From positions 1 to 64,000 of the forward strand of contig CACLQI010000005.1 of assembly GCA_902608975.1 (NCBI GenBank): a DNA stretch of 64,000 bases, read 5' to 3'. The stretch comes from an uncultured Pelagibacteraceae bacterium (GTDB lineage: Bacteria > Pseudomonadota > Alphaproteobacteria > Pelagibacterales > Pelagibacteraceae). The notes beneath the pieces were generated by a model. That model had not been told where the DNA came from. It saw only the letters and a program-made list of their open reading frames with translations, and did not search any database. This document shows positions 16,445 through 47,607 of the stretch, in pieces (position 1 is the stretch's first letter; each line of letters begins with the position of its first letter). The position numbers were made by a program, and so were the translations under genes.

Positions 16445-18019
16445 TTATACTAAAGGTTTATAAAATAATTGTTTTATATCCTTTTGATTATCATTTTCAT
16501 GTGTCGAAACATTTAATAAGAAACTACTTAGTAAAAACCATCCAAATATTGGACCCATTAAAGTTAACATTATAATTCTGTTTAAAGTTCTAGATGTAAC
16601 ATCTGGAACAAATCTTTTAACAGCGATCATAAATTGTTCTTTATCTATATTTCCCCTAAAGTAATGAACAAAAAAAGGAAATAAGTGGATAGATAGAACT
16701 ATCATTCCTGCAGATGCTGCTCCTTCTTGTAAATAAAAACCATGTTTAGTGTTTAGAAGTTTCTCAAAATTTTCATTTGATAGTTTTATTACTTCATCAG
16801 TTTTATATTTTCCTCCTGCAACCAAAGGATTATTCATTTTTTCGGCAGTTTCAGGAGATGTTATTACTGGTGTGTCTGGGTATCTATCAAGATGATGCTC
16901 TATATAATTTTTATCATCTGTTAATTTATAATTTACTTCATAGGTTTGGTTAGTTTTAGTATTGTAAAACCTTACATCTGTTGCTGGGTGAGCAGGATCA
17001 GTGAATAATTCTGCTGTCCAATAATCTCCATCCATATTTTCATAATTAGATTCTAAAATTTCGTAAAATTTTGATTGAACTAAATTATCTACACCAGGTA
17101 ATTGCTCTATATTATAACTCTTTGCAAGAGTCCTTATTTCATCAATCGAGGCATTAGGATTAAGTTTGTTAGTAAAAGACATTCTCCATGCATCTAACCA
17201 CATTTGACTAATTGGTCCCTCAAAACTATCTGTTCTTCCATCAAGTAAATACGCCATACTAGCAGCAAAAAAAACTTCCCCTTTTACTTTTTTTTTATAA
17301 TCAATATTTAATTGAATGAATGACTTAACATTATCCTTAATTTGATTAAATAAACTAGGCATATCTTTTAATAACAAAGTCATTAAACTTTTTCCTATCT
17401 TGTATGTGAAAGTTGATGCATTAGTTGCTATTCTTCCTAGCGAACTTAATTTAAGTTTTTCTTTTCCAGAGTTTTTTATTTCTGTGAAAGAAAGATAACA
17501 AAAGATACCTAAAAATAGGTTTGTAATAACAACAGAAACAAATGATGCAGGAGTTGCTGCCGGTAAATGTGTAATCAATTTAAAGATAACTTGTAATACT
17601 TTTTCAAAAGCATAAAGAACTACTATAGAGGAAAGACCAACTGCGCCTAAAAGTTTGAAGACATTTTCTCTTTTAAAATCTAGACCTACTAATCTAGCAA
17701 TATTCACTGCCATAGTAAATTCAAGCGCTTGTGCAACGTATAACCCAACTCCAATATCGCCAGGTATAGCAACCAATATACCAATAACTATCGAGCAACC
17801 TATGATAAATCTAAATATTTGTTCTTCAGATTTTTTATTAATTATACTGGATGCAACATTAATTAAATCATAAGGAATAATAGCATCTGTCAAAAATCTA
17901 TTTGTAAAAAATGTCTTTAGATCTTCATAATACTTTAACCATTTATCTTTACTGTTTAAAAAACCAAAAATATTTTTTTTTACAAAATCAAAAGTGCTTT
18001 TAAAGTATTTAAAAACCAA
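16445..18019 (-). CDS. Unknown multi-pass membrane protein, island cargo
   Basis: 524 aa, not recognised. Hydrophobic stretches lie at about residues 88-115, 140-165 and 180-200, and near the C-terminus (about 430-450 and 485-510). Between them is a polar region of roughly 200 residues containing DPAHPATDVRFYNTKTNQ and HHLDRYPDTPVI. The N-terminal membrane part (AIPGDIGVGLYVAQALEFTMAVNIARLVGLDF) faintly recalls DUF697-type membrane domains; this is weak. It is flanked on both sides by matching iterons and lies between copies of the tmRNA terminal hairpin, so I infer mobile cargo. No transposase or integrase accompanies it. Confidence 0.7.
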   Translation of the reverse strand: MVFKYFKSTFDFVKKNIFGFLNSKDKWLKYYEDLKTFFTNRFLTDAIIPYDLINVASSIINKKSEEQIFRFIIGCSIVIGILVAIPGDIGVGLYVAQALEFTMAVNIARLVGLDFKRENVFKLLGAVGLSSIVVLYAFEKVLQVIFKLITHLPAATPASFVSVVITNLFLGIFCYLSFTEIKNSGKEKLKLSSLGRIATNASTFTYKIGKSLMTLLLKDMPSLFNQIKDNVKSFIQLNIDYKKKVKGEVFFAASMAYLLDGRTDSFEGPISQMWLDAWRMSFTNKLNPNASIDEIRTLAKSYNIEQLPGVDNLVQSKFYEILESNYENMDGDYWTAELFTDPAHPATDVRFYNTKTNQTYEVNYKLTDDKNYIEHHLDRYPDTPVITSPETAEKMNNPLVAGGKYKTDEVIKLSNENFEKLLNTKHGFYLQEGAASAGMIVLSIHLFPFFVHYFRGNIDKEQFMIAVKRFVPDVTSRTLNRIIMLTLMGPIFGWFLLSSFLLNVSTHENDNQKDIKQLFYKPLV

Positions 18020-18062
18020 TTTTATTCCTTTTTTTAATAACCAATTAAATTTATCCTTGATT

Positions 18063-18129
18063 TACAATGAAGTCGAGAAACAAGGTTCCTGCCAAAAACG
18101 CTAAACTTACATTGAAGAATACATTGAAG
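18063..18129 (+). repeat. Right iteron cluster of accessory segment A
   Basis: TACAATGAAG at 18063-18072 and TACATTGAAG at 18108-18117 and 18120-18129, in the same orientation as the left cluster. The TACAATGAAG copies on both sides continue into similar sequence (AGAAAACAA at left, AGAAACAAG at right), so the two ends of the segment are related. Confidence 0.6.
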
Positions 18130-18171
18130 TGTTTCAAAAAGTCTTTATTTTCTGTTAGTATTTAAATTATA

Positions 18172-18190
18172 GGGGGAAACAGAACGCCCC
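18172..18190 (+). repeat. Truncated copy of the tmRNA 3' hairpin
   Basis: GGGGG, then AAACAGAAC, then GCCCC. The 3' half of the ssrA-end hairpin loop is kept, the 5' half (ACCTGGC) is lost or altered, and a short stem can still form. It separates the membrane-protein segment from the regulator/HNH segment. Confidence 0.5.
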
Positions 18191-18215
18191 TACTTATTCT
18201 AATATTTTATTGATT

Positions 18216-18518
18216 TTATCCTACAGATTTAATCTTTGGCACACTGGTGGCACACTTTTCATCAAAATTTAAAATGTATTCACAACCGTTACCTTTTTTA
18301 ATTTTTTTAATTAATTTAATTCTATTTAAATGATGAGTTGATTTTTGAATTGATGATCTGGCTAAACCAATCAACTTGCTAATTTCTATATATTGAAAAT
18401 TTGATCTGTCTTTATACTGATCTAATAAAGCAACAAGGGCAAAATAGACTATCCTATCATTTGAGCTCAACCTCTTATCGGTTAAGATATTTTTATCTAC
18501 AAGAATATGATTATTCAT
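18216..18518 (-). CDS. Small winged-helix DNA-binding protein
   Basis: 100 aa. Residues 18-75 read like a winged helix (LSSNDRIVYFALVALLDQY, then IEISKLIGLARSSIQKSTHHLNRIKLIKKI with a beta-wing), as in phage and plasmid HTH_36-type replication or regulatory proteins. It overlaps the end of the upstream repressor-like gene by 8 nt, so the two are coupled. Its last ten or so codons lie inside a repeat that recurs at 19946-19973, so the present C-terminus may be set by the recombination site. Confidence 0.65.
   Translation of the reverse strand: MNNHILVDKNILTDKRLSSNDRIVYFALVALLDQYKDRSNFQYIEISKLIGLARSSIQKSTHHLNRIKLIKKIKKGNGCEYILNFDEKCATSVPKIKSVG
18231..18258 (+). repeat. GGCACA double-motif repeat, left copy
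   Basis: It starts AATCTTTGGCACA and continues to TGGCACACTT. The same arrangement recurs in the same orientation at 19946-19973, with a small difference between the two GGCACA units. The repeats bracket the regulator, tRNA-remnant and HNH block. Confidence 0.6.
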
Positions 18519-19062
18519 TCTGGAAGTGAGTTCTTTTATATAGATATTGTATCTCTGAAAGGTTGCCTAATATTGGAGTTTCAAAATTATTAGCATTAGA
18601 CACACTAAATGAACCTGATTTAAGTACATTTATATATCCACAATACTTTATATTTTCTAAATAAATCAAATAAATTTTATTTGGATTTATTAAGTTTATA
18701 GAAATTTCATTATTATCAAAAAGGTGAAATCCACCTTCTATTGAATTGCTATAATTATAAACAACTATTTTGTTGCTTAATTCAAAAGGTAGTTCAATTT
18801 CTTTATGATCTTCATCAAAAACCCTATCCTCGACATAGCAATCGTTATCACAAAATAATTTAACTTTTGTCAGGGTGATATCATTAAAAATCTCTATTGG
18901 GTGACACTTTATTATCTTTGCTACTCTCACAGCATTATCCCATGAAATACATCTCGAATCTTCAGCCCAACGATTTATTGTAGATGCATCTTTATTAAGT
19001 AGTTTTGCTAAAGCGCTTTGTTTAATATTTTTTTTTATAAGTATATTTTTAAGTTGTGTCAT
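18511..19062 (-). CDS. Phage-repressor-like transcriptional regulator
   Basis: 183 aa. The N-terminal HTH (residues 1-58) has the XRE/Cro layout: IKQSALAKLLNKDASTINRWAED, then ISWDNAVRVAKIIKCHPIEIF. The C-terminal half is beta-rich and may be an S24/LexA-like dimerisation fold, but I see no clear catalytic Ser-Lys pair. It probably controls the small downstream wHTH gene and itself, as in phage or satellite lysogeny modules. Confidence 0.7.
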   Translation of the reverse strand: MTQLKNILIKKNIKQSALAKLLNKDASTINRWAEDSRCISWDNAVRVAKIIKCHPIEIFNDITLTKVKLFCDNDCYVEDRVFDEDHKEIELPFELSNKIVVYNYSNSIEGGFHLFDNNEISINLINPNKIYLIYLENIKYCGYINVLKSGSFSVSNANNFETPILGNLSEIQYLYKRTHFQNE

Positions 19063-19152
19063 AAGAATAAATTAATAAGCAAATATTTTATTTCAACAAT
19101 TAAAACAAAAAAAATGAAAATAGTTTCAATGTGTAGTTTAGTTTTCTTCCCA

Positions 19153-19187
19153 GGGGGTCGCAGGATTCGCACCTGCGACCCCGACCA
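19153..19187 (-). pseudogene. tRNA 3'-end-like remnant
   Basis: On the minus strand a variable-loop-like GGGTC, a T-stem GCAGG/CCTGC with loop TGCGAAT (consensus TTCGAAT) and a GACCCCC acceptor strand occur in tRNA order. The next bases are TGG, not a discriminator base plus CCA, and no 5' tRNA half exists upstream, where the HNH gene's stop codon lies. The element also forms a perfect 11-bp hairpin (19154-19182). It is most likely a tRNA end carried by an integrating element. A terminator-like hairpin is the alternative. Confidence 0.5.
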
Positions 19188-19190
19188 TAA

Positions 19191-19925
19191 TCATTTATTT
19201 GATTTTTTTATATTTTCTTCAGCCCATAAAGGTTGTAGATTTTTATAATTAAAACATTTCTTTTGCTGATCTGGATCACTTAAATCAAACTTAGAACAAG
19301 GCTTTATATGATCAATATGCCAACCATAACGACCTTGGTTTTTCCAATTCATACCTTTTTTAAATTTATTTTCTAAGTATTTTTTTAAAAAAGGTATCGA
19401 ACAACCTACTAAATCAGTTGTTGTATTTCTTTTTGTTAAATTTTGCTCCTTTAAAGCTAGTCTCATTCTTAAAGATAAATTATCTCTTATCCTTGTATGA
19501 GGGTCAGTTTTTCGTCTAATTGCTCTTCTTGCTATGTTTTTTTGATTTAATTCAACTCTATTTTTATCATAAAATTTTTTTTGAGATATTTTTTTCTTCC
19601 CAGAAATTGCATAATTTTTTTCATATTTTTGTTTAAGTTTTTTCCCTTTTTTAGTTTTATAAAATTCGATAACTTGTTTTCTTTCACAGGGACGACAAAC
19701 AGGTCTAAAAGTTAAAATATTCTTTTTTTTGCTTTTATATCTAAAATTCTTTGAATTTTTTTCTAAAAGTTTGCCACAAGATGTACAATTTTTATTTTTG
19801 CTTTTAGGTTTTTTAATATATTTTGCTCTTTTTTTAGCATTAATTTTGTCTTTATTTTTATTATAATATCTACGTTTAGCAGCAAGTCTTTCTGCTCTAT
19901 TTTTATATTTTTTAGGAGCCGCCAT
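19191..19925 (-). CDS. HNH endonuclease with zinc ribbon
   Basis: 244 aa, very basic. Repeated Lys/Tyr-rich segments occupy the N-terminus (residues 7-40). A CTSCGK...CRPC four-cysteine zinc ribbon spans about 48-80. The C-terminal HNH motif reads WHIDHIKPCSKFDLSDPDQQ...NYKNLQPLWAEENIKKSN. This is the phage and homing-endonuclease style of HNH protein. It may promote spread of the segment it lies in, or act as a phage packaging or defence nuclease. Its stop codon lies directly against the tRNA-like remnant. Confidence 0.85.
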   Translation of the reverse strand: MAAPKKYKNRAERLAAKRRYYNKNKDKINAKKRAKYIKKPKSKNKNCTSCGKLLEKNSKNFRYKSKKKNILTFRPVCRPCERKQVIEFYKTKKGKKLKQKYEKNYAISGKKKISQKKFYDKNRVELNQKNIARRAIRRKTDPHTRIRDNLSLRMRLALKEQNLTKRNTTTDLVGCSIPFLKKYLENKFKKGMNWKNQGRYGWHIDHIKPCSKFDLSDPDQQKKCFNYKNLQPLWAEENIKKSNK

Positions 19926-30165: not shown

Positions 30166-31086
30166 TTAAGCTATTGATTTTAGATATCTTTTGTTAATAA
30201 ATGAATGAGGAACTTTATTTTCTTTAACTTCTATAACAGAAAAGTTTGCATCATTTTCAAAAACTTTTCTTAATAGTTGATTTGTAAGCTTATGGCCACC
30301 TTGAGAACATTTTAGCTTCCCAATTATTTTATAACCTGACAAATATAAATCCCCTATACAGTCGAGAATTTTATGATTTACAAATTCTAGTTTATTTCTC
30401 AAACCATCGTCATTTAAAACTTTTTTATCATTTACTACAATTGCATTTTCTAAAGATCCACCTTTAACCAAATTCATTTTTTTTAACTTTTCTATGTCAG
30501 CATATACACAAAAAGTTCTTGAATTAAACACATCAGTTAAATCATCTTCATAAACTTTAACAAGGTTTCTTTGTGTACCAATTAAAGAATTTTCATAAAC
30601 AATCTCAAAATCTATATCCAAGCTTAATTTGCTAGGCTCAAATGAAATAAATTTTTTTCCTTCTCTAAGAGTAATTTTATTTTCAATCTTAATCACTTTA
30701 ATCGGAGAATTACTAAACACTACTCCTGAATGACTTATTTCTTCAACATATATTTTAGCTGATCCATCCAAGATTGGTAATTCATCACCATCAACTTCAA
30801 CTAATGCATTATCAATTCCCATTCCATAAAATGCTCCCATTAAATGTTCGATCGTAGAAATCTTCGCTCCATAATCATTTGAAATCGTAGTACAAAAAAT
30901 TGCACTGCTAACATTAAAAATTCCAGGAATTATTATATTATTAGATTTTAAATCAGTCCTCTTAAAAATTATTCCAGTATTTGGTTGAGATGGTTTAATC
31001 TCCATGTGAACCATTTTTCCTGAATGGAGAGCAACGCCATTTAAAACAATATTTTTTTTAATTGTTTTTTGATTTAAAACTGACAT
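30166..31086 (-). CDS. lpxC: UDP-3-O-acyl-N-acetylglucosamine deacetylase
   Basis: A 306-aa zinc enzyme committing UDP-GlcNAc to lipid A. Zinc-ligand motifs are visible: TIEHLMGAFYGMGIDNA (first His) and FVNHKILDCIGDLYL (HKxxD). Its presence implies a lipopolysaccharide outer membrane. It is the last gene of the division cluster, 65 nt behind the shortened ftsA-like gene, as lpxC follows ftsZ in many proteobacteria. Confidence 0.96.
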   Translation of the reverse strand: MSVLNQKTIKKNIVLNGVALHSGKMVHMEIKPSQPNTGIIFKRTDLKSNNIIIPGIFNVSSAIFCTTISNDYGAKISTIEHLMGAFYGMGIDNALVEVDGDELPILDGSAKIYVEEISHSGVVFSNSPIKVIKIENKITLREGKKFISFEPSKLSLDIDFEIVYENSLIGTQRNLVKVYEDDLTDVFNSRTFCVYADIEKLKKMNLVKGGSLENAIVVNDKKVLNDDGLRNKLEFVNHKILDCIGDLYLSGYKIIGKLKCSQGGHKLTNQLLRKVFENDANFSVIEVKENKVPHSFINKRYLKSIA

Positions 31087-31151: not shown

Positions 31152-31862
31152 CTATTTAAAAAAGTAGAAAAGTTTCTCAAAAAAACCTTTTTTTTCTACT
31201 TTTTTGGGAACTATTACAATTTCTTGTTTATTAAAACCTTTATTTAAATTATACCCAGCCTTGCATATACTCTCACTAGAATTATGGTTAACAAACAATT
31301 TGGCGTAATTTGAGCAAATAACTTTATCAACTGAAATTTGAAAATTATTAAATACTTCCTCAATTTTTTTTATTAAATTCTTTGGAAAACAAATAAACTC
31401 AATGTCGGCAGAAATTTTATTACAATTTATATCTGTTGGTACAAAAACATAATCTAAATCATTAATTATATATTTATTTACAATGATATGAACAATATCT
31501 TTTGTTGGATATGATCTAATAATTTGTTGCTTCGCATCACGAATAAGATTTTGGATATCTTTTTTTTGAATGATTTTATTATCAAGTTTTTTTAATAAAG
31601 AAATATGAATAGATATTGTTTCATTTGTATCTATCATTAAGAATACATTATTAACAAATTCATTAATATTTTTTTCTACTTTCTTAATATTTTTTTCTAT
31701 TATTTTTTCTAATTCCTCAAAATCAGTATATTCGTTTATAGAGTTTATTCCTAAATTATCTTCAAAAAAAAAAACTAAATTATCTTCAGATTTTTTAAAA
31801 ACGCTTACATTTAGTTTTTTTTCTTCTAGGCTAAAATAAACATCAAATTCTTTTTTACTCAT
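31152..31862 (-). CDS. ftsA: Shortened FtsA-like protein (mini-FtsA)
   Basis: 236 aa in the ftsA position behind ftsQ (8-nt overlap). Residues 1-205 follow the FtsA 1A-1C layout: an N-terminal beta pair; a helix after INEYTDFEELEKIIEKNI; then a 1C-like stretch with IQKKDIQNLIRDAKQQII, DIVHIIVNKYIIND, an IEFICFPK strand, a second helix and VDKVICSNYAKLF. At that point normal FtsA (about 420 aa) continues with the phosphate-2 motif and domains 2A-2B; here these are absent. The C-terminus KKGFFEKLFYFFK resembles FtsA's membrane-binding amphipathic helix. The phosphate-1 loop is degenerate, so ATP binding is not expected. Homology is my reading by eye; an unrelated protein is possible. Confidence 0.7.
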   Translation of the reverse strand: MSKKEFDVYFSLEEKKLNVSVFKKSEDNLVFFFEDNLGINSINEYTDFEELEKIIEKNIKKVEKNINEFVNNVFLMIDTNETISIHISLLKKLDNKIIQKKDIQNLIRDAKQQIIRSYPTKDIVHIIVNKYIINDLDYVFVPTDINCNKISADIEFICFPKNLIKKIEEVFNNFQISVDKVICSNYAKLFVNHNSSESICKAGYNLNKGFNKQEIVIVPKKVEKKGFFEKLFYFFK

Positions 31863-32541
31863 AGCTATTAATTATTTTATTTTTAAATCTTAAATCAATT
31901 ACTTTTATATTTTTAAAATTTTCATTTTTATACAGTTCATAAATTAAATTAAGTTTAAGCTCTATATTTTCTGCTGGTAACTTAAATAATTTATCATCAG
32001 AGGTTTTTATATCCCAGCGACCTGATGGAAAAAAATAAATCTCTTCTATTATATTAAAATTAAATTTTGATTTATTAACAAATTTTACAAATTCAATATA
32101 ATCGTTAATATTAATTTTTCCAAAAACATATGGCAAGTTTTTTTCTGACTCATTATAATCAATTAGTTTTCCGTTAGAACCTATAAAAAAAAAATTACCA
32201 TCAATATTTGTGATTCCTAAAAATTCGGTTTTTTTAATTTTAATTTCTATTATGTTTGGATAAATTTTTTTTATTTCAAATGAATTTATTAAATTATTTT
32301 TCTGTAGTATTTTTGTTAAAAATTCTTTTCTAATAAAAAAAATATTTTCTATTAATTTTTTTTTTATTTCCTGTGAAACTTCCAAATTTTTTTTTTTCGT
32401 AAGACCCGAAACTTTTATCTGTTCAATATTAAATTTTAAGAATTTAAAATTAATTATATTTGTATTGTTAAATGTGCTTAATAACAAAAAAATAAATAAG
32501 TAGATATAAATTTTATTTTTCTTACCTATTTTTTGAAGCAT
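31855..32541 (-). CDS. ftsQ: Cell division protein FtsQ
   Basis: A 228-aa bitopic protein: N-terminal membrane helix (about residues 9-28), then a POTRA domain (INFKFLKFNIEQIKVSGLTKKKNLEVSQ and following) and the beta domain with FPSGRWDIKTSDDKLFKLPA. FtsQ scaffolds FtsB and FtsL at the septum. It overlaps ddl by 20 nt and the ftsA-like gene by 8 nt, in the usual ddl-ftsQ-ftsA order. Confidence 0.9.
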   Translation of the reverse strand: MLQKIGKKNKIYIYLFIFLLLSTFNNTNIINFKFLKFNIEQIKVSGLTKKKNLEVSQEIKKKLIENIFFIRKEFLTKILQKNNLINSFEIKKIYPNIIEIKIKKTEFLGITNIDGNFFFIGSNGKLIDYNESEKNLPYVFGKININDYIEFVKFVNKSKFNFNIIEEIYFFPSGRWDIKTSDDKLFKLPAENIELKLNLIYELYKNENFKNIKVIDLRFKNKIINSYE

Positions 32542-39236: not shown

Positions 39237-40321
39237 TATCTGAATTTTAAAGTAGCCAAACCTATCATTGCTAAAATTATTGATATTATCCAAAATCTGA
39301 CAACAACAGTCGACTCTGGCCAACCCTTTTTCTCAAAATGATGATGGATAGGTGCCATTTTAAAAACCCTTTTTCCTGTAAGTTTATAGGATCCAACCTG
39401 AATAATTACTGAAATAGCCTCTAATACAAAAAGACCTCCAGTTATTGCTAAAACTATTTCATGCTTGGTAATAATTCCTACCGCTCCTAAAGAGCCTCCT
39501 AGCGCCAACGAACCAGTATCACCCATAAAAATTTTTGCAGGTGGTGCGTTAAACCATAAAAAACCTATACATGCACCAATTATAGAACCACAAAAAACAG
39601 AAACTTCTCCGATCCCCTTAATGTATGGTATTTGTAGGTATTCAGAAAAAACTATATTTCCAGTAACATAACTAATAAATGCAAAGCAACTAGCAACCAA
39701 TATAACTGGAACTGTAGCAAGTCCATCAAGACCATCTGTTAAGTTTACCGCATTTGATGAACCAACTATTATGAAAACAGCAAAAGGTATAAAGAACCAA
39801 CCTAAGTTAATTATTAAATTTTTAAAAAAAGGAAAATATAAATATTCTAGCTCGGAATGATCTGAAAAATAAGTTAGAAAGACTATGCCCGTAATAGCAA
39901 TCAATATTTGTGTGGTTAATTTAAATCTAAATGAAACCCCTGAAGAATTTTTATATTTTATTTTTCTATAATCGTCGTAAGCTCCTAATAAACCAAAGCC
40001 GCCTACTATAAAAATTAAAAACCAAATAAGATAGCTAGACAAATCTCCCCAAAGTAAAATACCTGAAAAAAGGCCTAATAAAATTAAAACACCTCCCATT
40101 GTTGGAGTGCCAATCTTTTTAATAATATGATCGCTGGGGCCGTCTTCTCTTATTGGATCTAAAATTTGACGTGCTGAAAAAAAATTGATAAATGGCGTAC
40201 CAATTAAAAAAACCACAAACATAGATGTGAAAACTGCTAGACCTGTTCTTACAGTTAAATACTTAAATACATTGAGAAATGAAAATGTATCTACAAAATT
40301 AGTTAATAAACTATAAAGCAT
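39236..40321 (-). CDS. mraY: Phospho-MurNAc-pentapeptide transferase MraY
   Basis: A 361-aa polytopic enzyme making lipid I on undecaprenyl phosphate. Hallmarks are DDYRKIKYKNSSGVS (catalytic Asp pair region), NAVNLTDGLDGLA, WFNAPPAKIFMGDTGSLALGG, and the HHH-containing MAPIHHHFEKKGWPE. Ten membrane segments are evident. It overlaps murE-murF by 11 nt. Confidence 0.97.
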   Translation of the reverse strand: MLYSLLTNFVDTFSFLNVFKYLTVRTGLAVFTSMFVVFLIGTPFINFFSARQILDPIREDGPSDHIIKKIGTPTMGGVLILLGLFSGILLWGDLSSYLIWFLIFIVGGFGLLGAYDDYRKIKYKNSSGVSFRFKLTTQILIAITGIVFLTYFSDHSELEYLYFPFFKNLIINLGWFFIPFAVFIIVGSSNAVNLTDGLDGLATVPVILVASCFAFISYVTGNIVFSEYLQIPYIKGIGEVSVFCGSIIGACIGFLWFNAPPAKIFMGDTGSLALGGSLGAVGIITKHEIVLAITGGLFVLEAISVIIQVGSYKLTGKRVFKMAPIHHHFEKKGWPESTVVVRFWIISIILAMIGLATLKFR

Positions 40322-43157
40322 TTTTAATTCTTTTTAGTTGATGAGTAAATTTGTTAAGTCCTGTTGAATTAGATCCTTTGATCATTAGATAATCATTATT
40401 ATTTAATTTGTTTTTAATCAAATCATTTATTTGTGAACTTTCTTTTAAAATTAAACCTTTTTTAGATGGACTAATATTTCTATAGGTTTCCTTTATATGA
40501 TTACCAATTACATTAACTTGATTTATTGAGGTTAAATTAATCACTGGTGTTATTTGCCGATGTAACACTTTTGAATGTTTACCTAATTCTAACATATCTC
40601 CTAGAATCATATGTTTTTTATTTTTAGTTTTTATTAAATGAAAATTTTCTATTGCTGATTTAAGAGATAATGGATTTGAATTGTAGCTCTCATCAATTAA
40701 ATAAATGTTTTTTTTCTTAAACTTTATTTTAGAAATATCCCCTCTTCCCTTTGGAACATTAAATTTGTAAAAAATATTTTTGTTTAGCTTTAAAGGATCC
40801 TCAAAAATAGAGGTAATTGCAATTGTAGCCAATAAATTTTTAATAAAGTTTTTATAATTACTAGAAATATAATAATCCTTATTTTTATTATTTATTTTTA
40901 TTGAAATTTTAAATTTATTATTTTCTTTATTTATATATTTAAATTTGACATTTGCTTTTTTATTGATCCCAAAAGAAACAATCTTTAGTTTCCTCTTTTT
41001 TGCAATCTTTTTGTGTAAATTAAAAAAATAATCATCGGCATTTAATACTATAACTCCGTTCGCATTAATATTATTAATAATTTCTGATTTAGCTAATGCA
41101 ATTTGTTTTATATTTGTAAAATTTTTAGCGTGTGCATATGAAATATTTGTAATAATACCAACATCGGGTTTAATTATTTTGGATAAGAAATCTATTTCCC
41201 CTTTTTTATCCATGCCAACTTCAAAAATTCCATAATCGTGCTTTGGATTTAAGTTAAACAAACTTAACGGAACCCCATATTTATTGTTAAATGATTTTGG
41301 TGAAGAAGATATTGTGCCAAATTTACCGAGTGTTTCTTTTAACATTTCCTTTAATGAAGTTTTTCCACAACTACCGGTTATTCCAATAATTTTGGAAGAA
41401 CAAGTTTGTCTAATAATTTTTGAAGTTTTTGTTAAAAATTCTAGACTATTTTTGACTTTAATTTGCTTATAGTTTTTCTGCGATTTACTAATTTTGTTTA
41501 CAACAGCTAAGCATGCTCCTTTTTTAAATGCTTCATTAACAAATTTATTTCCATTTTTATTTTTTCCTTTTATAGCAAAAAAAATATCATTCTTTTTTAC
41601 TTCTTTTGAATTAATCGATGCTTTTCTAATTTTGGTTTTTATAGAAAAATTTTTATTTTTAGAAGTTTCTTTTAAAATATTAAATTTTAAATCACTTTTT
41701 AAAATTTTATTCTTTTTCTTTATAGATCTAGTAATACAGTTTTTATCTGAAAAAAAATTTTTTATCCTCCCATAGTCCTGAATTTTTTCATGTCCCCTAC
41801 CTGCAACAACTAAAATTTCACCGGTTAATAAATTTTGTATTCCTTGGTCAATGGCCTCTCCTCTATTTGGGATTTCAAATAATTTTGATTTACTAATTTT
41901 CTTTTTTATAGTTTCTCTTATATTTTTAGGATTTTCAGTTCTAGGATTGTCATCAGTTAAATAAATTTTTTCACAATAATCATTCGCAATTTTTCCCATT
42001 GATATTCTTTTAAACTTATCTCTATCTCCACCACAACCAAATACAATTGATATCTCTTTATTTTTAAATTGATCTTTTATGTTTTGAAGACACGTTCTTA
42101 ACGCGTCGGGTGTATGAGCGTAATCTAATATTACAGAAGAGTTATTTTTTATTGTGCCAATTTTTTCCAATCTTCCATAAACAGGTTTTATTTTGTGGAT
42201 GACGTTTACAATATTCTTAAAATCAATATTACTAATATTTGAAGCAATCATTGCCATTAAAATATTTTTTAATTGAATTTTACCAATTAAATTTAATTCA
42301 AGATTATATATTTTTTTTTTATATTTTATTTTGACAAGCTGCTTTTCACTAAAATATTTGTGAGATACAATTAATAAATCTCCATTTTTACTTGATATCG
42401 TATTAAGCTTTAATTTTTTTTTTTGAGCGATTGACTTGATTTTTTTATACTCTGGTATGTCTGTGTCTGTAATTACATTTGAGTTTTTGATTACTAATTT
42501 TCTGAATAAGTGTAATTTTGCATCTAAATAATTTTTGTAAGATTTGTGATAATCCAAATGATCATGAGATAAATTTGTGAAAATTCCAGTTTTAAATTTT
42601 AAACCGTCTAATCTGTGCTGTTTAAGGCCATGGCTAGATGCCTCTAATATTATATTGTTAATATTTTTTTCTTTCAATTTCATTAAATGCTTATTCAGTT
42701 TTAATGGGTCTAAAGTAGTATTTTGTACTTCAATTTTTTTTGAGTTTGTATAAATCCCTAAAGTTCCAATAGATGCAACTTTTTTTTTATTAAGTTTAAG
42801 TATTTGTAAATAAAAATTAACAACTGAAGATTTTCCATTTGTACCTGTAACTGCAATTAAGTTTTTGGGTTTTTTTTTATAAATTTTTGACGAAACTTCT
42901 GATAGCAATCTTCTTACATTTGAAGATTTTATAAATAGCACATTATTTTTTATACCTTCATATTTGTTGCTAGAGACTATTGTTCTAGCACCTTTTTTTA
43001 TCGAATGATTAATAAACTGATTACCATCAAAATGATTTCCTTTTATCGCAAAAAAAATATGGTTTTTTTTACATTTAGAACTATCAAAACTTAAACCTGA
43101 AAAAAAATGGTTTTTAAATTTAAAATTAATATTTTTAAAATAATCTCCTATTAGCAT
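40311..43157 (-). CDS. murE-murF: Fused MurE-MurF ligase
   Basis: 948 aa holding two complete Mur ligases in one frame. Residues 1 to about 480 are MurE, with ATP loop AVTGTNGKSSV, the LEASSHGL and NLSHDHLDYH blocks, and DNPRTENP, the meso-diaminopimelate recognition motif. Residues about 485-948 are MurF, with FFAIKGKNKNGNKF, ATP loop GITGSCGKTSLKEML, a Mur central block ending TNISYAHAKNF, and DESYNSNPLSLKSAI. There is no internal stop or plausible separate start at the junction. The fusion would perform two successive additions (meso-DAP, then D-Ala-D-Ala). It lies in the normal ftsI-murE-murF-mraY order. Confidence 0.94.
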   Translation of the reverse strand: MLIGDYFKNINFKFKNHFFSGLSFDSSKCKKNHIFFAIKGNHFDGNQFINHSIKKGARTIVSSNKYEGIKNNVLFIKSSNVRRLLSEVSSKIYKKKPKNLIAVTGTNGKSSVVNFYLQILKLNKKKVASIGTLGIYTNSKKIEVQNTTLDPLKLNKHLMKLKEKNINNIILEASSHGLKQHRLDGLKFKTGIFTNLSHDHLDYHKSYKNYLDAKLHLFRKLVIKNSNVITDTDIPEYKKIKSIAQKKKLKLNTISSKNGDLLIVSHKYFSEKQLVKIKYKKKIYNLELNLIGKIQLKNILMAMIASNISNIDFKNIVNVIHKIKPVYGRLEKIGTIKNNSSVILDYAHTPDALRTCLQNIKDQFKNKEISIVFGCGGDRDKFKRISMGKIANDYCEKIYLTDDNPRTENPKNIRETIKKKISKSKLFEIPNRGEAIDQGIQNLLTGEILVVAGRGHEKIQDYGRIKNFFSDKNCITRSIKKKNKILKSDLKFNILKETSKNKNFSIKTKIRKASINSKEVKKNDIFFAIKGKNKNGNKFVNEAFKKGACLAVVNKISKSQKNYKQIKVKNSLEFLTKTSKIIRQTCSSKIIGITGSCGKTSLKEMLKETLGKFGTISSSPKSFNNKYGVPLSLFNLNPKHDYGIFEVGMDKKGEIDFLSKIIKPDVGIITNISYAHAKNFTNIKQIALAKSEIINNINANGVIVLNADDYFFNLHKKIAKKRKLKIVSFGINKKANVKFKYINKENNKFKISIKINNKNKDYYISSNYKNFIKNLLATIAITSIFEDPLKLNKNIFYKFNVPKGRGDISKIKFKKKNIYLIDESYNSNPLSLKSAIENFHLIKTKNKKHMILGDMLELGKHSKVLHRQITPVINLTSINQVNVIGNHIKETYRNISPSKKGLILKESSQINDLIKNKLNNNDYLMIKGSNSTGLNKFTHQLKRIKNAL

Positions 43158-46176: not shown

Positions 46177-47607
46177 TTAATTCTTCTGTCTCCGTAAAAA
46201 AGCTGGTATTTCTAAATCATCTTCCTCTTCTTCATTTTCAGAGGATGATATTTCATTAACTGAACTATCTTCATCAGAACTAAAAAGATCTGGCGTTTCT
46301 TGTTCAATTCCAAAATTTTCTAAGCCATTTGAAGATTGTTCATTTATTTCCTCAACTACTGGCTTTGAAGTTTCACCTTCATGATTTTCAATATTAGAGT
46401 TTATATTTGTGTCTTCTGAATTTAGCATATGCGCATCAACTAAATCAGCTGATGATGTTTCAGCTTCTGTTAAAACTTCATTTTCAAGTTTTAATGCATT
46501 TGCTCCACTTGTCATCGTATTTGTCATTGTGGCTGATAAATTTAATGCACTTGAATTACTGATATTTGAAAAATCAGAATAACCAGGATTTCGATTTTGT
46601 ATTCTATGAACCATATTAATAACTGATTTTGATTCAGGCTGTTGTCCATCAAGCGCAGTTGCAACTATTGATACTCTCATAATACCTTCAAGAGCAGGAT
46701 CGGTAATTGCACCTATAATTAACTCTGCCTCAGGATCAACTTCAGCTCTTACCTTGTTAACAGCTTCATCAACCTCAAAAAGTTTTAGATCTTTTCCTCC
46801 AGTAATATTAACCAATAATCCTTTTGCACCTTTTAAAGTGTAGTCATCAATCAACTGATTAGTTATAGCCATCTCTGCAGCTTTTGCTGCTCTACCTTCA
46901 CCTTCAGCCTCGCCTGTTCCCATCATAGCTTTACCCATAGAGCTCATAACATGTTCGACATCTGCAAAATCCAAATTAATAAGACCTGGTCTTACCATCA
47001 AATCAGTTATACTTTGAACTCCATGAAGTAATACATGATTTGATAGTTCAAACGATTCTTCAAAAGTTGTTTGCTCGCTTGCAACTTTAAATAAGTTTTG
47101 ATTTGGTATAACTATAATTGTATCAACATGTTTTCTTAGCTCTTCCAAACCTTGTTGAGCCCTTCTCATTCTAGAAGGTCCTTCATATAAGAATGGTAAA
47201 GTAACTACTCCTACTGTTAAAATATTTAATTCTTTGGCCGCTCTTGCAATTACATGTGCAGATCCAGTTCCTGTTCCTCCTCCCATTCCCGCTGTTATAA
47301 AAACCATATTTGCACCTTGCAGAACATTTATAATATCATTTAAGGACTCGTCGGCCGCAGCTTGACCAATGTCTAATTTTGATCCTGCCCCTAAACCTTT
47401 TGTTAAGTTTAAACCTATTTGAATTTTTTGTTTTGCTTTACTATGTTTTAAATCTTGAGCATCAGTATTAACTGCTATGAATTCAACTCCCTGAAGACCA
47501 TTATCAATCATTCCATTAATTGCATTGCCGCCTGCTCCTCCAACGCCTAGAACTAATATTCTCGGTTTCAATTCTCTTATATCTGGTGTTTTAAAATTTA
47601 TTGTCAT
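46177..47607 (-). CDS. ftsZ: Cell division tubulin FtsZ
   Basis: A 476-aa GTPase forming the Z-ring. Motifs: [14 protein letters not shown] (about residues 21-34), the tubulin signature GGGTGTGSA (about 108-116), and NVDFADVE-like [12 protein letters not shown] long acidic Ser/Asn/Glu-rich linker (about 335-460) ends in the conserved FtsA/ZipA-binding tail [10 protein letters not shown]. It lies between mraZ and rsmH instead of after ftsA. It overlaps the upstream 62-aa ORF by 17 nt. Confidence 0.97.

Follow-up and report, generated by a model that had tools for sequence, protein, structure and literature searches.

FtsA is usually treated as an ATP-dependent, polymerising anchor of FtsZ, and it is not settled which of these activities are essential. 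In the 64,000-nucleotide stretch of DNA from an uncultured Pelagibacteraceae bacterium analysed here (hereafter the window), the gene that follows ftsQ encodes a protein far shorter than FtsA. The locus thus raises the question of which parts of FtsA have been lost, and of how FtsZ could be held at the membrane without them.

The initial annotation had described a short gene of 236 amino acids behind ftsQ, and this reading frame is confirmed at positions 31152-31862 on the minus strand, with an ATG start. Its product, denoted mini-FtsA, consists of domain I of FtsA alone (subdomains 1A and 1C) and a C-terminal amphipathic helix. Upstream lies ftsQ (31855-32541, minus strand), with matches to FtsQ_DivIB_C and POTRA_1 over their cut-offs, and downstream lies a gene (30166-31086, minus strand) which, from familiarity with its sequence, we take to be lpxC; its position is conserved across the genus, and it was used as the marker of the locus. 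The 5′ end of mini-ftsA overlaps the end of ftsQ and 65 bases separate its stop from lpxC, leaving no room there for a separate domain II. The same ftsQ-ftsA-lpxC locus is common to species of the genus with the mini and with the full form.

These genes belong to a division and cell wall (dcw) cluster on the minus strand, which comprises mraZ, ftsZ, mraW, ftsI, a murE-murF fusion, mraY, murD, ftsW, murG, murC, murB, ddl, ftsQ, mini-ftsA and lpxC; except for ftsQ, the names were assigned by sequence familiarity and are presumptive. In the window ftsZ sits between mraZ and mraW, apart from ftsQ and ftsA, and in the other members of the genus whose fetched region was long enough it likewise lies upstream within this cluster. 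The open reading frame resembling a MurE-MurF fusion (40311-43157, minus strand) has 948 amino acids and a similar length across the genus (about 940-963 aa), the best matches in the outgroup family having 472-477 aa. Elsewhere in the window, at 16445-19925 (minus strand), reading frames resembling a membrane protein of 524 amino acids, a helix-turn-helix regulator and an HNH nuclease were seen by eye amid housekeeping genes, and possibly form a small variable island. The genome from which the window comes is a 1.0 Mb draft in 35 contigs, 85% complete, and the nearest named relatives of mini-ftsA are in uncultured Pelagibacteraceae single-cell genomes, e.g. AG-439-C02, which places the bacterium in SAR11.

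Anatomy of mini-FtsA

From its N terminus the protein begins with the first part of subdomain 1A (residues about 1-70; 31653-31862, minus strand, as are all positions in this paragraph), which contains a degenerate phosphate-1 loop near residues 12-16; both were placed by alignments and residue counts. Subdomain 1C, an SHS2 domain, follows at residues about 71-162 (31377-31652), as placed by a Pfam match and a structural model, the boundaries of this and of the first 1A part being approximate. Alignment and model agree that the chain then returns to 1A with a strand (residues 177-183) and a helix (184-188), up to a deletion junction near residue 191 (31290-31376). Shortly past the junction the model places the last 1A helix (residues 199-207; 31242-31268), domain II (2A and 2B) being missing between the two. 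A linker motif, GxNxxEV (residues 209-216; 31215-31238), leads to the C-terminal amphipathic helix GFFEKLFYFFK (residues 226-236; 31155-31187), the presumed membrane anchor, which is recognised from the sequence, the model and the hydrophobic moment. The mean hydrophobic moment of this tail is 0.55 in the mini proteins, compared to 0.31 for other stretches, and the helix modelled at residues 227-235 is predicted to be the amphipathic membrane-targeting feature of FtsA.

Aligned with full forms, mini-FtsA matches over two stretches, one reaching from the N terminus to residue 191 or so and the other running from the last 1A helix through the C-terminal tail; the position of the deletion junction hardly varies among the minis. 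The missing block amounts to about 140 residues when compared with the nearest full-length relatives (residues 189-330 of the relative G030), and not to the 190 or so estimated initially, and the FtsA-like stretch that had been drawn to residue 205 ends near residue 191. The resemblance of the end of the protein to the C-terminal segment of FtsA, amphipathic helix included, holds good, but the last 1A helix is retained as well. Since an actin-fold chain returns to subdomain 1A at its end, the missing block corresponds to the whole of domain II, and what is left is an entire domain I. Mini-FtsA is, with hardly any room for doubt, FtsA without domain II, in which domain I and the C-terminal amphipathic helix are retained.

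Profile matches, the alignment and an AlphaFold model all bear out the original description of the protein as FtsA-like, with 1A and 1C. Pfam SHS2_FTSA (PF02491, subdomain 1C) matches residues 91-157 (E 4.7e-7; 30.5 bits against a gathering cut-off of 25.4). Of 51 aligned members only 17 are matched by this profile at E <= 0.01, and the 1C domain of SAR11 is therefore divergent. The TIGR01174 ftsA profile is matched over its first half only (residues 46-187 against positions 44-183 of 371, E 2e-13), and the score of 50.2 bits lies below the equivalog cut-off of 175.85, as do the scores of the full-length FtsA proteins of the SAR11 genus. The best sequence matches in the PDB, which are weak, are to FtsA of Escherichia coli and Xenorhabdus; a scan of genome contigs with a single mini-FtsA protein as the query gave no match.

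An AlphaFold2 model built on an alignment of 51 relatives has a pLDDT of 88.3 and a pTM of 0.82 (the model of the full-length relative G030 has a pLDDT of 85.7). It contains the actin-like fold of 1A, subdomain 1C and the last 1A helix, as judged from the model itself, Foldseek and VIA-align. Against the PDB, each of the 19 best matches given by Foldseek is an FtsA, and in VIA-align the FtsA structures score above all other chains (Z 14.5-17.8), with model residues about 3-209 pairing with FtsA residues about 6-388 and domain II skipped.

Nucleotide site, FtsZ and division partners

Like known FtsA (TIGR01174, PF02491 and PF14450; structures 7Q6D, 7Q6F, 7Q6I, 4A2A and 3WQT), mini-FtsA is encoded behind ftsQ and has the 1A and 1C folds, the last 1A helix and the C-terminal amphipathic helix. 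It differs in having neither domain II nor the phosphate-1 motif. The degeneracy of the phosphate-1 loop, already remarked on in the initial annotation, extends to the minis as a group: the Asp of the motif is present in all 24 full forms but in only 2 of 35 minis, and the Gly in all 24 and in 5 of 35, respectively. The phosphate-2 and adenosine motifs fall in the part that is missing, and the ATP-binding motifs of FtsA are not found in mini-FtsA. The decay of phosphate-1 is as expected if a nucleotide site dependent on domain II has been lost. With domain II absent and phosphate-1 lost, mini-FtsA therefore has no ATP pocket, no IIA-IIB longitudinal interface and no 2B site for the FtsZ tail. 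Judged by its sequence, it is a descendant of FtsA that lacks two of the defining features of the family, domain II and the ATP site. The full-length FtsA proteins of SAR11 (e.g. G030, G025, G427 and HTCC9565) come from the same locus, the nearest having about 41-47% identity over the shared part, and carry the same C-terminal tail (KQEVVIVPKK..GFFEKLFHFF), but they keep domain II and an invariant phosphate-1 Asp and Gly.

Weaker fold matches are found with PilM and the cytoplasmic domain of GspL/EpsL, actin-like relatives which have an IC-type domain. GspL is not known to have an ATP site and is a precedent for a degenerate FtsA-like adaptor, but it keeps both RNase-H-like lobes, whereas mini-FtsA has one. 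PilM and GspL act in pilus formation and type II secretion, whereas mini-ftsA lies in the dcw cluster between ftsQ and lpxC and not in a pilus or type II secretion operon.

The ftsZ gene (46177-47607, minus strand; 476 aa) has kept the sequence for its C-terminal tail, as the initial annotation stated, and the tail EIPAFLRRQ is conserved in mini and full genomes alike, so that some partner must still read it. In known FtsA this is subdomain 2B, which binds the FtsZ tail (structure 4A2A). Among the other partners whose presence had been in question, SepF (PF04472) and ZipA (PF04354) were found in none of 20 genomes, with positive controls in Bacillus subtilis and E. coli, and no known alternative FtsZ anchor is therefore at hand. 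ZapA is present in 18 of the 20, regardless of the form of ftsA; it binds FtsZ but does not itself anchor to the membrane. SPOR searches of 20 genomes found only lipoproteins resembling RlpA, encoded between lytic-transglycosylase-like and DacA-like genes. Their RlpA-type appearance led to their rejection as FtsN candidates, and these genomes gave no recognisable FtsN carrying a SPOR domain.

The filaments of gammaproteobacterial FtsA are held together longitudinally by IIA-IIB contacts and laterally by IC-IC contacts, and the tail of FtsN binds the cleft between IA and IC (PMC7613929). Since domain II is gone, mini-FtsA is left with the membrane helix, the lateral interface and the cleft. We think it probable that this one-lobed actin homologue is a nucleotide-free division adaptor, with FtsZ attached via a new surface or another protein. 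From the computed anatomy we infer how it may bind, assemble and localise. Mini-FtsA would sit on the membrane through its C-terminal helix, would bind no ATP and would be unable to make IIA-IIB longitudinal actin contacts. The retained IC, which makes the lateral FtsA-FtsA contacts, and the IA-IC cleft would gather septal-synthesis proteins at the division site, and the FtsZ tail, gripped by 2B in known FtsA, would owe its membrane attachment to another protein. For the reading of mini-FtsA as a non-ATPase membrane adaptor without actin-type polymerisation, FtsZ being tethered otherwise, the sequences leave the case evenly balanced. Against an adaptor role it can be said that the SPOR proteins yielded no candidate for what is presumed to bind in the IC cleft, and that GxNxxEV might provide a new site for FtsZ binding, in which case a tether would be favoured.

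Mini-FtsA could indeed still tether FtsZ itself, through a new surface such as a 1A face remodelled and uncovered by the loss of domain II, or through the GxNxxEV linker. The FtsZ tail is kept in the mini species while SepF and ZipA are absent, and the linker after the last 1A helix, which would be expected to vary in FtsA, holds a motif that is nearly invariant in the minis and present in the nearest full forms. Its E214 is found in all 35 minis and in 13 of 24 full forms, and residues 214-215 are modelled as a strand. However, because GxNxxEV also occurs in full-length relatives which have 2B, it did not arise to replace 2B, and we regard direct tethering as a tentative alternative, a good deal short of probable. 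It is unlikely that IC-IC contacts on their own still enable mini-FtsA to assemble into filaments or sheets, scaffolding the division site in the manner of FtsA minirings or double filaments. The lateral contacts of the double filaments of Vibrio FtsA are almost all IC-IC (PMC7613929), and IC is the part that is retained, but with the IIA-IIB longitudinal contacts missing only limited assemblies would be expected unless a new interface had evolved.

Distribution, selection and origin in SAR11

A profile of the part shared by mini and full forms was run over 399 genomes of the genus, of which 275 matched, and 197 genomes of the order. Counted by hand from the rows listed in the order survey, the genus Pelagibacter has about 67 minis that are intact, of 220-245 aa, and 31 genes of full length (370-401 aa), with some 10 more cut by contig ends or frameshifted, the short form being the commoner. 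No mini form was seen in the other genera of the order surveyed, in which intact genes are about 378-420 aa, including those of a second family. Minis are found in single-contig genomes such as G322, G409, G106 and G424, and full forms in HTCC9565 and in G427 (369 aa), which is presumably HTCC1062. No earlier description of a short FtsA in SAR11 was found in the open-access literature, subscription journals lying outside the scope of the search.

Neither a second full-length ftsA nor a separate domain II was found in the window genome or in the four single-contig mini genomes named above. In these mini genomes PF14450 matches only a protein which, from its length and sequence, is presumably MreB, with a sub-threshold match in some to what we take on the same grounds to be DnaK. 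Eight even shorter "micro" forms proved to be genes cut by contig ends. Most of the checked genomes in which ftsA had no match were also without lpxC, the locus being absent from the assembly; in G142 lpxC is at a contig end, and G430 has a contig-cut full form. In one single-contig genome (G012; 1,343,202 bases) mini-ftsA is interrupted by what looks like a single-base frameshift in a poly-T/poly-A run, where a sequencing error, slippage and a real mutation would look the same.

In six close pairs of minis dN/dS is 0.09-0.21, similar to ftsQ and mostly above lpxC and murG, and by this measure the minis are under purifying selection. Six residues (E63, I157, Y186, E214, F228 and F232) are identical in all 35 minis. 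Were FtsA dispensable in these streamlined cells, the short form might be en route to loss, and evolution faster than that of lpxC or murG in most pairs, together with the apparent frameshift in G012, would be in keeping with such decay. However, the low dN/dS, the consistent length across dozens of species, the six invariant residues and the fact that no clean loss of ftsA was seen in genomes with an assembled locus make decay very improbable. The window genome is a draft and normal-length genes do exist in relatives, but within the genus the majority of species have the short form, which recurs in dozens of independent genomes including single-contig ones, so that a local deletion or an assembly or gene-calling artefact in the window can be set aside as next to impossible. 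As far as sequence goes, the interpretation in the initial annotation, i.e. a non-ATPase FtsA that tethers by a different route or leaves FtsZ to another anchor, is supported, and none of the three findings that might have overturned it (a second full-length ftsA, a model without the 1C fold, or a merely local deletion) was made.

In a tree of 13 genes the minis are found in several places, requiring at least 4-5 changes. A tree of ftsA built on all shared columns groups them instead, with modest support (81/97), and the shared-column alignment rejects the 13-gene topology. Extensive lateral exchange in the dcw cluster within SAR11 appears likely, since each of the dcw genes tested gives a tree in strong conflict with the concatenated one, and for lpxC the topology of ftsA is preferred. 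When 1C columns only are used, a choice made post hoc after the first tree, the window lineage groups with full-length relatives and not with the other minis (97/94), and a single mini clade has an AU p of 0.039. The short form may have arisen by one deletion followed by lateral spread, or domain II may have been deleted at least twice in parallel, with 1A changing convergently.

Significance for FtsA function

SAR11 provides a natural deletion series, in which close species carry FtsA with or without domain II at one locus and the FtsZ tail is unchanged. This series allows the contributions of ATP binding, polymerisation and FtsZ tethering to be told apart. If HTCC1062, a reference strain, has the full form, this may explain why the short form has gone unnoticed. 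Mini-FtsA points to another FtsZ anchor, or to a new contact between FtsA and FtsZ, in a bacterial group that is among the most abundant on Earth. If its reading as a one-lobed adaptor is true, ATP binding, actin-type polymerisation and the contact between 2B and FtsZ would be dispensable for FtsA-dependent division in some bacteria that rank among the most abundant in the sea.
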